Below, piece by piece: positions 43,402-47,937 of a stretch of 47,937 bases of DNA. The notes under the pieces were generated by a model, which worked only from the letters and a program-made list of their open reading frames with translations, did not search any database and had not been told where the DNA came from. The stretch comes from a virus, in the IMG/VR virus record IMGVR_UViG_3300016457_001507, positions 1-47,937 of that record; one strand, 5' to 3'. Position 1 is the stretch's first letter, and every line of letters begins with the position of its first letter. The position numbers and the translations under genes are program-made.

Positions 43402-44187
43402 CTACTCGTTTAGCAGGGCATATCCAGTCGGCATCTGATCTTCCGGCAGTAGCCTATAGTTCCAGATGCCGATGCCGTTTCGGCCTCGACACACCATGTT
43501 CTTCAGCCAAGAATCAGCGCCGCGTTTGCGCATCGTCAAGAGATCATTCTCTACCTTGAAGCCATCGAGGCTGAATGCGTCGAAGAAATTGGCGCGTCTT
43601 ATCTTGAGTAGGCCGGCTTGATACTCGAATTCGACATCTATCTGTCGCGGGCCTCGTCTGCTTCGGAAGATTCGGCCCTTTTGGTCATGGTCCCATACGT
43701 TGTTGTAAAGCGTCAGTTCGCCGCGGTCTATGCGAGTGATGGCCTTACCCGTTTCATCGGTGAAAACTGCTGAAATAGTCTCCAGCCCCTCGTCGCGATG
43801 GACTGTAATGTAGTCACGCCCATTGATCATTAAAGCGGTTGCTGCTGCATCCGGCCAGGGTGATGTTATTTGAAAATCAACGCTGCCGATTAAAAGTGAA
43901 AAAGCTTTTGTGTCCGGAATAATGAGGGGAGCGGTCTTCGGTGCTCCGCTATTAAATGGATTATTGTTGCTTTGTTGTACTTGCTCTCGATGAATCAATC
44001 CGCGGGTCTTTAGAGCGTGGTGTGTTGGGCACAGTAGGGTGAGATTTGCTTCCTCATGCAACCTGTTTTTTGAGTACTCCTCAATGTGCTCGTACTCGTA
44101 AAATGGGACGCCGCAAATGACACAGCCGAACCCGCATCTTTGCCGAACGGAGCGTTTGATTTCAGCCGGAATTGAATGGCGAGACAT
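43402..44187 (-). CDS. HNH-type endonuclease-like accessory protein
   Basis: A 261-residue protein with an HNH motif near its N-terminus: C18-x3-C22-x2-C25, His34, Asn49 and CPTHH (about 53-57). Residues 100-261 form an unknown, beta-rich domain. GC content is clearly below the flanking genes, and the gene lies opposite to the late operon with its stop 2 nt from the spike stop. It could be a homing-like nuclease or an anti-phage/anti-plasmid element. The start at 44187 is chosen because the longer frame crosses GC-rich phage DNA. Confidence 0.82.
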   Translation of the reverse strand: MSRHSIPAEIKRSVRQRCGFGCVICGVPFYEYEHIEEYSKNRLHEEANLTLLCPTHHALKTRGLIHREQVQQSNNNPFNSGAPKTAPLIIPDTKAFSLLIGSVDFQITSPWPDAAATALMINGRDYITVHRDEGLETISAVFTDETGKAITRIDRGELTLYNNVWDHDQKGRIFRSRRGPRQIDVEFEYQAGLLKIRRANFFDAFSLDGFKVENDLLTMRKRGADSWLKNMVCRGRNGIGIWNYRLLPEDQMPTGYALLNE

Positions 44188-44433
44188 TTGAAAGTGCGTG
44201 GCTTCGGTGGTGTCTATTGTTGCCTTACGATTAAACTGCGCACAACTCTCGACTGTCGTCTGTTGGTGAAACTCGGCCTTCAGGAGAAGCGCGACGGGCT
44301 GTGGTGCCCGACTGAGGCCGGCCGGGCCTTCAGCGTGCTGCTGCAGGTTCGCAAGAAGCAGCTCGCTGGCACCGACGTGCAGCAGCTGAAGTGGAAGGAG
44401 AGCGTTCTGGGGCAGCTGGTCGACCTCGCCTGA
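44176..44433 (+). pseudogene. Truncated phage antirepressor C-terminus
   Basis: The frame from 44176 gives 85 residues. Its last 60 (from LLVKLGLQEKRDG, about 44258) match the C-terminal end often seen on phage antirepressor proteins, including LWCPTEAGRAF and VQQLKWKESVL. The first 27 residues lie in low-GC DNA shared with the HNH gene start and do not fit, so the 5' part of the antirepressor gene seems to have been lost when the HNH gene arrived. A functional short protein is possible but unlikely. Confidence 0.65.
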
Positions 44434-44441
44434 TGCACAAC

Positions 44442-44469
44442 CCTGCGGCCTCCATCTGGCGGCCGCAGG
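44442..44469 (+). other. Hairpin after the antirepressor remnant
   Basis: Perfect 9-bp arms CCTGCGGCC (44442-44450) and GGCCGCAGG (44461-44469) around a 10-nt loop, with no T-tract on either strand. It lies between the remnant and the 3' end of umuC and could end leftward umuDC transcription. Confidence 0.55.
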
Positions 44470-44502
44470 TATCAACCCATGCCCGTGACTGCCGCCCGTG
44501 CA

Positions 44503-45753
44503 TCAGCATCGCGCCGGCGGGATCTCGTGCACGGAGGTCGTGTAGTTCGGCGAGAGCATGTGCTGCCGCATGCCCCACGCAGGCCGTGGCTGCCAACCCG
44601 ATGCGCCAAGGCCGGCCGTGCCGCGCCCGAACTTCTGGTTGATCTGGTCCATGGTGGCCATCAGCCTTTCGTTGCCGACCACCGTCGGCCCGAACAGATC
44701 CGCCTGCAGTTCATCTGGCCGGGCCAGATCGAGCAGCGCCACGCCGGCCTTCTTGTATCCAATGCCGTCGCGGAGCAGGCCTCGCAGCAGCTTGCGCACG
44801 ACGCCAAGCACCACGGTAGTGTCTGCGGTGGACGCGGGCAGGCCCACGGTCCTACTGGCGTTGTGCTGCCGAAGCTCAGGCCGGAACACGTCGGACTGTG
44901 CGAACACCCACACGCCGGCGGTGACCAGCCCCCGGGCACGCAGCTTCTCGCAGGCGCGCACGGCGAAGGTGGCCAGCGCCTGGGCAACGGCGTCGTGGTC
45001 CTCGACTCGGTCAGCAAACGATCGGCTGACCATGATCTGCTGGCGATCCGGCTCCACTTCTTCCAACTCCATGCAGGGGTGGCCCTGCAGCTCGCGCTGG
45101 GTGCGCGCAAGCGTCACCCCGAAGGAGGCCAGGATGTCGTCCGCCGGCGCATCGCGTAGCGCGGCGGCAGTGGTGATGCCCATCGCCTCCAGCCGCGGCG
45201 CCAGCCGGCGGCCCACACCCCACAGATCCCCGACCGGGAACCTGCGCAGCACCGCGTCGCGGCAACCGGCGTCCCCGAGGTCGATGACGCCGTCGGCGCT
45301 CTTGGCCACCTTGTTGGCCAGTTTGGCCAGGGTCTTCGTGGGCCCGATGCCAACGCAGTTGGGAATGCCGGTCCATCGGTGCACACGCTGCCGCAGATCC
45401 CGGGCGAACCGCTCGCGGTCCCGCACACCCTCCAGATCGATGAAGCTCTCATCGATGCTGTAGACCTCCACCCGCGGCGCGGCCTCTCGCAAGATGGTCA
45501 CGACGCGGGCGCTCATGTCGCCGTACAGGCCGAAGTTGGCCGAGCGCATCTGCAGCCCGTGGCGTCGCACCAGGTGCTTCAGCTCGTGGGCCGGCTGGCC
45601 CATCTTGATGCCCAGCGCCTTGGCCTCTGCCGAGCGCGCGATCGCGCAACCATCGTTGTTGCTCAGCACCACCAGCGGCACACCGCGCAGCGCCGGCTGA
45701 AACACGCGCTCGCAGCTGGCGTAGAAGTTGTTGCCGTCAACGAGCCCGAACAC
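44503..45753 (-). CDS. umuC: Y-family translesion polymerase UmuC-like
   Basis: A 416-residue Y-family polymerase (E. coli UmuC is 422). Asp6 in VDGNNFYASCE and Asp101-Glu102 in SIDESF are the catalytic carboxylates. Residues 350-354, QADLF, match the sliding-clamp-binding consensus. The GTG start overlaps umuD's stop region. Working with UmuD and the clamp, it would copy damaged DNA. Together with the LexA box it forms an SOS cassette carried by the phage. Confidence 0.94.
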   Translation of the reverse strand: MFGLVDGNNFYASCERVFQPALRGVPLVVLSNNDGCAIARSAEAKALGIKMGQPAHELKHLVRRHGLQMRSANFGLYGDMSARVVTILREAAPRVEVYSIDESFIDLEGVRDRERFARDLRQRVHRWTGIPNCVGIGPTKTLAKLANKVAKSADGVIDLGDAGCRDAVLRRFPVGDLWGVGRRLAPRLEAMGITTAAALRDAPADDILASFGVTLARTQRELQGHPCMELEEVEPDRQQIMVSRSFADRVEDHDAVAQALATFAVRACEKLRARGLVTAGVWVFAQSDVFRPELRQHNASRTVGLPASTADTTVVLGVVRKLLRGLLRDGIGYKKAGVALLDLARPDELQADLFGPTVVGNERLMATMDQINQKFGRGTAGLGASGWQPRPAWGMRQHMLSPNYTTSVHEIPPARC

Positions 45754-46219
45754 GGCCGCCCCGGCGCTTGATCTGGCGGACGACCCCGACCACGGCGAAC
45801 ACCTCAACCTCGGTGGCCTGCTCGAGCACGATGGGCGGGAAGTCTGGGTTGGCCGAGTGCAGCTCCATGTGGCTCTCGAACAGCTGCAGCACCTTGCAGG
45901 TGGGCTGGTTTCCGTCCCAGATGGCAATGACCAGGTCACCGGCCAGCGGCGTGACCGACCGGTCCACCACCAAGATGTCCCCATCGCTGACGCCGGCGCC
46001 GCTCATGGACCAGCCATCGGCCCGGTACAAGAAGGTGGCGGCGGGGTTGCGCACCAGCAGACGATGCAGGTCGATCGCATCGTCCATGAAGTCGTCGGCC
46101 GGCGACGGGAAGCCCAGCCGTGCGCGCGCTGCTGCCAGGGGCACGAAATGCGCCGGGCCGTCGATCAGCGCGGGCCCGATGGGCTGCGCCAGGGTGTGGG
46201 GGAAGGGTAGGGACTGCAT
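45737..46219 (-). CDS. umuD: UmuD-like S24 protease
   Basis: A 160-residue UmuD homologue with Ser71 and Lys109 as the catalytic dyad, spaced like Ser60 and Lys97 of E. coli UmuD. The self-cleavage site aligns with Leu35-Gly36 (RLGFPSP), where known UmuD/MucA proteins carry Cys-Gly or Ala-Gly. The ATG at 46219 is chosen over one at 46267 because the latter would start just beside the LexA box. It should be cleaved on RecA filaments to UmuD', partner of UmuC, if the Leu is tolerated. Confidence 0.9.
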   Translation of the reverse strand: MQSLPFPHTLAQPIGPALIDGPAHFVPLAAARARLGFPSPADDFMDDAIDLHRLLVRNPAATFLYRADGWSMSGAGVSDGDILVVDRSVTPLAGDLVIAIWDGNQPTCKVLQLFESHMELHSANPDFPPIVLEQATEVEVFAVVGVVRQIKRRGGRVRAR

Positions 46220-46268
46220 GGGCGTACTCTGGGAGCGGCGTGTCTCACGAGTCGAGACGGCACGCATC

Positions 46269-46284: not shown

Positions 46285-46393
46285 CAGCTGGCCGTGAGCG
46301 TGGAGCGTCCGGTTGCTGAACGTGTTCCGTCGCAGCGGCCGCCGCGGCATGCCAGTCGCGGCCTCCGCGACAGGGGGCGGGCATCCTGCAGCA

Positions 46394-46609
46394 ATGGCGA
46401 AATGGCAGAAGGATCAGGCCTCATTGGAGGCCCAGGCTGCGGCCAAGCTGCAGCAGGCATCCGACCTCGAGCGGGATACCTCGGGGAGCTGGCGGTCCCG
46501 TGCACGCCGGCAGCGAAGTGCACAACGGCTGCGGCAGGCGGCCAGCGGCAACCAGCGCGCCGCCAGCCGGCTGGCAGGACTGGACCTGCCGGATGACCTG
46601 CCGTTCTAG
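46394..46609 (+). CDS. Small protein with SSB-like acidic tail
   Basis: A 71-residue basic helical protein (two Arg/Gln/Ala-rich helices) ending in LDLPDDLPF, which resembles the acidic C-terminal tip of bacterial SSB (DDIPF). It diverges from umuD across the LexA box, and its stop overlaps the integrase stop tail to tail (CTAG). An ATG at 46313 would add 27 residues; I chose the later ATG for its protein-like composition. It may mimic the SSB tip to engage SSB-interacting proteins; this is inference. Confidence 0.6.
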   Translation: MAKWQKDQASLEAQAAAKLQQASDLERDTSGSWRSRARRQRSAQRLRQAASGNQRAASRLAGLDLPDDLPF

Positions 46610-47937
46610 AGGCCTGCTCCCTTGCGGATCTGCAGCACTGTGGCGCCCGCGCCGGTGAGCAGTTCAAGCAGCGCCTCTACGGCAGCGCGCTTCTCCGCGT
46701 CGTACTCGAAGAAGTTGTAGTGCCGCTTCTGGACGCCGCTCAGGCCGTGGGACTGCAGGTGGCCACGAACTTCCTCGGACAGGCCCAACGCCGCGAGCCG
46801 CGTTTCCACTGTGCGGCGCAGGTCGCCTGGCGTGAAAGGCGACGCCAGTTCCTCGGCAGCCACCATGCTGGCCACCACCGGGTCCATGATTCCCCGGAAC
46901 TCGTCATAGCTGGCTGCCTTCTTGCCGGCGGTAAGCGAGAACAGGTGCGGCCCTTCACCGTCGCCGCGTAACGTTTCGAGATCCGTGGCTATGCGGGGAA
47001 GCAGCGGCACCAGGTGCACGCGCGGCAGGCGCCGCCGGCCTTTGATGTCGAGCAGGCGGACGGAGCCGGTATCGGTGTCGGCGTCGTGGTCGTGATCTGA
47101 CCATTGCAGCCGGATCATCTGCGCGATTCGTTGGCCGCCGGTCAGCAGGTGGAACCGCAGGAGTGCGCCTGGCCGCCCGGGGATGGCCTCGATCCTGCGC
47201 CAGTAGGCCCGAAGCTCCGCCACCGAAAGAACTCGGTCGCGCGGTTGCCCGCTGTCCAGCGTGGCCAAGTCGCGCGCTGGGTTCCTGGACACGTTGAGCG
47301 CACGCAGCGCGTCAGGGGCGGCGGCGTCCTGTTTGGCGGCGATGGCCGCCGCGTAGGCTGCGCGCAGGTACGACCGGACCTTGCCGCCCTCGCGCATTTT
47401 CTTGCCGCGCACCAGGCGCGACAGGATCGGGATCAGGTCGTCCAGCTCCAGCTCGGATGCAGGGCGGGCCCACAGGGCCGGCCACGGTTTCTCGATGTGG
47501 CGCTCGATGGATGCTCGGGTGGCGGCGGCAGACACCTTGCCGGCGTCCTTCAGGCTCTGGGCATAGGCCAGCATCAGGGCGCCCAAGGTGGCGCCTGATC
47601 GGCGCGTCGCCTCGGCCAGCGCCTCTTCCTTCGCACGCTCCACTGCCGCTGCTTCTTCGGCCATCGAATCGCGCAGATCCCGGTCTCCGGCCTGATACCG
47701 ACGGGACAATGCCGCCGCTGCCTCGCGCGCTGCGGTCAGCGCCAAGCCCGTGCCGATCAGCAGGCGGTCGCGTTGCCCGTTGGCCTTTGTGTACCGGTAG
47801 TAGAACCGCAGCTGCCCGCCGGCCAGCTTGCGCACGTCTAGGCAGCCGGTGCCACGCGGGGCCGGATCGGAGGCCCATTCGCCGACCGGCAAAGCGGCCA
47901 GTCCCTTCGCTGTAAGCATTCCCTTCATCGCGCCCAT
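46606..47937 (-). CDS. int: Tyrosine integrase (P4-type)
   Basis: A 443-residue tyrosine recombinase with an N-terminal DUF4102-like arm-binding domain (about residues 1-90), a core-binding helical domain (about 110-215) and a catalytic domain (about 235-430). Catalytic residues: Arg270 in GGQRI, Arg375 in PGDLRR (the usual His before it is Gly), His397, and Tyr407 in RHYNFF. It starts at the last bases of the window; if circular, it follows the gene at 1-405 directly and is the end of the PL operon. It would catalyse prophage integration and excision. Confidence 0.93.
   Translation of the reverse strand: MGAMKGMLTAKGLAALPVGEWASDPAPRGTGCLDVRKLAGGQLRFYYRYTKANGQRDRLLIGTGLALTAAREAAAALSRRYQAGDRDLRDSMAEEAAAVERAKEEALAEATRRSGATLGALMLAYAQSLKDAGKVSAAATRASIERHIEKPWPALWARPASELELDDLIPILSRLVRGKKMREGGKVRSYLRAAYAAAIAAKQDAAAPDALRALNVSRNPARDLATLDSGQPRDRVLSVAELRAYWRRIEAIPGRPGALLRFHLLTGGQRIAQMIRLQWSDHDHDADTDTGSVRLLDIKGRRRLPRVHLVPLLPRIATDLETLRGDGEGPHLFSLTAGKKAASYDEFRGIMDPVVASMVAAEELASPFTPGDLRRTVETRLAALGLSEEVRGHLQSHGLSGVQKRHYNFFEYDAEKRAAVEALLELLTGAGATVLQIRKGAGL

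Follow-up and report, generated by a model that had tools for sequence, protein, structure and literature searches.

A small prophage protein with an SSB-type C-terminal tip and a promoter resembling those of host DNA-repair genes

Does a prophage carry the C-terminal tip of bacterial SSB on a small protein that is not an SSB, and is this protein produced in response to DNA damage? SSB is a hub that gathers many bacterial DNA-repair enzymes. The last residues of its tip bind many repair proteins (PMC5872125, PMC10143822). The question was raised by a short gene near one end of the window, by which we mean the whole 47.9-kb virus record analyzed here. The window also encodes a CI-like repressor and helicase, portal and tape-measure genes, and its relatives were found in Stenotrophomonas. 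The original prediction described the product of the short gene as a basic protein of 71 residues with the C-terminus DLPDDLPF. Translation of the gene gave the C-terminal sequence GLDLPDDLPF followed by TAG, and a direct count gave 13 K/R against 8 D/E residues, in agreement with that description. The features of the locus are summarized in Table 1.

Table 1. Features of the small gene, its surroundings and its tip-less relatives (window coordinates).
Feature	Coordinates	Strand	Basis or remark
Small basic protein gene, 71 aa	46394..46609	+	22 loci, purifying selection; AlphaFold2 helices 3-27 and 33-63
Codons of SSB-like tip DDLPF, residues 67-71, free C-terminus	46592..46606	+	Invariance in 22 loci; likeness to host SSB tail
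Dyad GTCGC-N7-GCGAC, -39 to -23 of small gene; proposed activator site replacing -35	46355..46371	+	Fixed distance to ATG; same element at host repair genes
Predicted -10 hexamer CATCCT (NANNNT), ending 6 nt before ATG	46382..46387	+	Conservation of A(-11) and T(-7)
Palindrome GAACGTGTTC, between the two divergent promoters	46318..46327	.	Kept in some loci
LexA-type box TTAGTACAATTACTAA	46269..46284	.	Usually 50 nt from umuD ATG; moves with umuD
umuD dyad GTCTC-N7-GAGAC, same -39 to -23 spacing	46242..46258	-	Only other promoter match in the window
Predicted umuD -10 hexamer CAGAGT	46226..46231	-	Sequence
umuD-like gene, 160 aa, ATG at 46219	45737..46219	-	Peptidase_S24 E=6.6e-25; PHROG UmuD-like for the longer frame
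umuC-like DNA polymerase V subunit (start inferred)	44503..45753	-	IMS and DUF4113 domains
Tyrosine integrase (int), convergent with small gene	46606..47937	-	phrog_1 E=4.5e-23
Sister-clade loci without the tip: L050, L052, L054-L057, L078, L079, L087

Orthologues were gathered from IMG/VR, a genome scan and whole-genome searches, and 22 distinct loci, mainly from Stenotrophomonas prophages, were compared. Most substitutions in the small gene fell on third codon positions. The summed pN/pS was 0.29 for residues 8-60, 0.28 for residues 61-66 and 0.14 for residues 67-71, the lowest value thus falling in the last five residues. The other two forward frames showed the opposite pattern (pN > pS). 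One reverse frame likewise had a low pN/pS, as expected because its codon positions mirror those of the gene. Judged from these substitution patterns, the frame is a real gene and not a chance ORF.

The AlphaFold2 model made from 30 sequences (mean pLDDT 79.7, pTM 0.59) contained two helices and an unstructured tail, and the body of the protein is predicted to be a two-helix hairpin. Residues 64-71 had no secondary structure in the model (block pLDDT 58 and 52), which would place the tip on a flexible tail. A Foldseek search of the model against PDB returned only generic helical hairpins, with a best E of 1.3. The protein had no match among annotated phages and plasmids and no useful family in Pfam, PHROGs, NCBIfam or PADLOC, Pfam giving one weak match at the level of chance. 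The small gene is not described in a paper on SOS islands of S. maltophilia (PMC13310844).

All 22 loci finish in (D/E)(D/N)LPF. L69, P70 and F71 never vary, whereas position 67 holds D or E and position 68 holds D, with N found once. The SSBs of related hosts finish in MDDFADDDIPF. When 659 gene-called C-termini of the window and the fetched loci were screened, [DE]xPF was found only in this family and in host SSB; these C-termini were gathered around family members and serve as a background control, not as an unbiased survey. When the window was shuffled by mononucleotides 100 times, not one open frame ended in [DE][DE][ILVM]PF. The SSB profile PF00436 had no match in the window, leaving the phage without an SSB of its own there.

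The 3' end of the small gene overlaps the stop of the convergent int by 4 bases, and the tail might have been conserved merely through this overlap. This was ruled out by loci L011/L017, L022 and L068. In L011/L017, unrelated sequence has displaced the gene's 3' part and the protein ends in ISELIEDLPF, with EDLPF retained by other codons, while cargo lies between the small gene and int, which no longer abut. The small gene is likewise apart from int in L022, L031 and L068. Since L011/L017 keep the tip with different codons and away from int, the overlap is not the cause of tip conservation. The proposed likeness to the SSB tip was therefore upheld: the tip is in every orthologue compared, survives the 3' replacement in L011/L017, and recurs in a remote member, L093.

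This remote member (E=1.2e-7), found in two genomes, ends in SSADLPF and adjoins tRNA-Asn (L093/L109); the gene call shows no integrase as its neighbour. A sister clade with 31-42% identity has the same core and the same promoter type without the tip; its proteins end in DDDQAA, FDEAA and similar sequences, often acidic and several closing in AA. Some prophages of this clade are integrated beside tmRNA (L051, L052 and L055). The original prediction would have been refuted by loss of the acidic tail in homologues; the tail was kept in the orthologues, and was lost only in this distant clade. By these comparisons, the tip is strongly selected in one clade and is not universal in the family. Because the tip-less clade has the same core and promoter type, the ancestral role does not depend on the tip, which speaks against a tip-based function of the protein. 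An uncharacterised phage gene whose product starts with MLPPDF adjoins the sister-clade gene in L052 (8995-9492) and L055 (8796-9107), and the one in L052 has the same repair-type promoter.

As originally described, the small gene and umuD diverge across a LexA-type box. In the loci compared, the box lies 43-51 nt, usually 50 nt, upstream of the umuD ATG. Thirteen of the 22 loci have it within 140 nt of the small gene, and the other 9 do not. The exact box is absent from the stretch examined in L068 and L077; in L028, the box remains and umuD was not found within the 8 kb examined. The box was considered as the operator of the small gene, and this was ruled out, because it travels with umuD and is not near the small gene in the 9 loci. 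Its position indicates that the LexA box belongs to umuD. The palindrome between the two promoters, GAACNNRTTC, is retained in about half of the loci. Beyond umuC, toward the tail genes, an HNH-like protein with a weak PF01844 match is encoded at 43402-44475 on the minus strand.

The small gene has a predicted promoter of its own, different in kind. The dyad is placed exactly at -39 to -23 throughout the DLPF clade, with single-base variants in L009 and L077, and its spacer varies in sequence while its length is constant. A(-11) and T(-7), on which a -10 hexamer chiefly depends, were each present in 22 of 24 non-redundant members of the whole small-protein family. Because the predicted -10 ends 6 nt before the ATG, transcription is predicted to start at the ATG and to give a leaderless mRNA. 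A position-weight scan of the window found only two genes with this promoter, the small gene and umuD. In the GTCTC-N7-GAGAC variant, both arms are altered together, as would be seen for a dyad bound by a protein. The upstream inverted repeat was also considered as an RNA hairpin and rejected, its fold energy being no better than that of shuffles (z 0.2); the fixed -39 position and the A(-11)/T(-7) hexamer fit a promoter better.

The same layout was found in host genomes. The pattern GTCGC-N7-GCGAC-N11-A-N3-T-N6-ATG occurred exactly in 182 of 390 Xanthomonadaceae/Lysobacteraceae genomes, against 1 match of the reversed control. We analyzed 50 host loci (L115-L164), which combine the loci returned by the search with 20 hand-picked ones, so that the counts are not a census. 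The genes downstream coded PA0069-family radical SAM proteins (17), UvrD (8), arginyl/leucyltransferase (8), the Pfam 5'-nucleotidase family (7), Lhr-like helicase (3), RecA (2) and RecC (2), and 3 were unassigned. Representatives were confirmed by profile search. When up to 2 mismatches were allowed in three related hosts, RmuC and TIGR03916 were added, amid matches at the level of chance. WYL proteins are present in these three related hosts. The small gene belongs by layout to this host repair promoter class, defined as GTCKC-N7-GMGAC at -39 to -23 with an NANNNT -10 ending 6 nt before the ATG.

With this layout also present upstream of host recA, recC, uvrD, lhr, rmuC and radical-SAM genes, the small gene appears to be wired into a host DNA-repair regulon. 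The dyad and the -10 at a fixed distance from the ATG would mark a candidate LexA-independent repair regulon with leaderless mRNAs, and the host regulon is probably LexA-independent. DNA damage likely controls the small gene, judging from the company its promoter keeps. The idea that the protein is made during SOS thus stood in part: control by DNA damage was made likely, but control through the LexA box was not supported, as the box travels with umuD and the promoter of the small gene differs.

The reading that we favor, with slightly better than even confidence, is that the small protein is prophage-encoded, DNA-damage-regulated and not an SSB, and presents an SSB-type C-terminal tip with which it docks on host SSB-interacting proteins. 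Binding of the tip to the SSB-tip pocket of one or more of these proteins is, taken by itself, fairly probable. Upon DNA damage, a non-LexA host activator would switch on the small gene together with umuDC. The free LPF-COOH tip and its acidic flank would then dock in the SSB-tip pocket of at least one host SSB-interacting protein, and the basic body would keep the complex bound to nucleic acid or to a partner. The outcome would be either competition with SSB tips or steering of repair enzymes to or away from phage DNA, neither being preferred here; the original prediction named RecQ, RecO, PriA and exonuclease I as proteins for which the tip could compete with SSB. Candidate partners are ExoI, RecO and PriA, whose genes occur in related hosts. 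Pure competition would need high expression, because each small chain has one tip while SSB-coated DNA has many. The phage may in this way tap the host repair machinery after DNA damage.

The position of the gene suggests other roles. The interval from umuDC to int is a hotspot for cargo, which lies on either side of the small gene, and SRAP (PF02586) genes are frequent neighbours. The start of int abuts tRNA-Tyr in L017 and L058. An accessory of integration or excision, such as an excisionase-like protein or a directionality factor with an incidental tip, would agree with the convergent overlap with int in most loci and with the location of the small gene, which is always at most a few kb ahead of the attachment site. 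Cargo, however, separates it from int in L017/L031, L022 and L068, and the distant DLPF member beside tRNA-Asn has no integrase next to it in the gene call. The predicted hairpin is not the winged helix of an excisionase fold, and the promoter is common to repair genes, not recombination genes, making this role very unlikely. We find it unlikely, to a slightly smaller degree, that the protein is linked to defence or counter-defence, modulating a defence system or RecBCD-like nucleases with the tip docking on a repair enzyme. The cargo of the hotspot includes defence genes, and in L016 (7344-9872) umuD is separated from the small gene by a PD-Lambda-5-type pair, a D12 methyltransferase and an AAA ATPase. 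Cargo is bordered by a decayed second copy of the small gene in L026 (5950-6260) and by a partial 3' copy in L068 (7918-7998), which suggests that modules were gained by recombination at the small gene. The small gene is nevertheless bound to no single cargo type, its product had no PADLOC match, and its promoter points to DNA damage.

The conserved tail could also be another C-terminal signal, for example one recognized by a protease, with the DLPF and sister-clade tails serving as alternative turnover signals. The family does swap tails at a fixed length, and several sister tails end in AA as in ssrA-type tags. To our knowledge, however, DDLPF is not a known tail for ClpXP or Lon. It matches instead the SSB-tip pattern with its acidic flank included (PMC5872125), and we regard a turnover signal as quite unlikely.

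A wider claim can be made only tentatively, and we put it at somewhat less than an even chance: that a temperate-phage protein family, absent from Pfam, PHROGs, NCBIfam and PADLOC, subverts the SSB hub by mimicking the tip and is induced through an undescribed LexA-independent damage regulon of Xanthomonadaceae/Lysobacteraceae, which also drives recA, recC, uvrD, lhr and rmuC through leaderless promoters. If the tip binds, the 71-residue protein would offer a natural tool for the study of the SSB hub and a starting point for peptide inhibitors. The promoter may matter more, as it points to a second, LexA-independent damage regulon in a family rich in plant and opportunistic pathogens, and its pattern makes the regulator directly searchable.

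In a limited search of open-access literature, no phage protein other than SSBs emerged for which an SSB tip has been demonstrated. Compared with the bacterial SSB C-terminus (DDDIPF; partners ExoI, RecO, PriA, RecQ and others), the small protein has the same free end, acidic and then hydrophobic-Pro-Phe, on an unstructured tail, but it is phage-borne, has a predicted helical hairpin instead of an OB fold, and has Leu for Ile. The SSB of phage HK620 recruits Sak4 with an NDYPPF tail (PMC5928155); that tail is also phage-borne and of SSB type and works in recombination, whereas its carrier is a true SSB. DdrB of Deinococcus is induced by damage, as is proposed for the small protein, and likewise lacks an OB fold and has a purported SSB-like C-terminus, although the sequences are unrelated. 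That C-terminus was reported to be dispensable for radioresistance (PMC3834827), a caution against the reading that we favor, since SSB-like tails can be dispensable. The promoter can be compared with two WYL-activated, LexA-independent systems. Damage promoters of PafBC, TGTCGG-N10-TANNNT (PMC8151990), are alike in the GTC-type half-site, the 10-bp gap to the -10 and the repair-gene targets. The site of DriD, ATACGAC-N7-GTCGTAT overlapping the -35 (PMC12340889), shares the N7 dyad over the -35 and the repair-gene targets, with its half-sites oppositely oriented.
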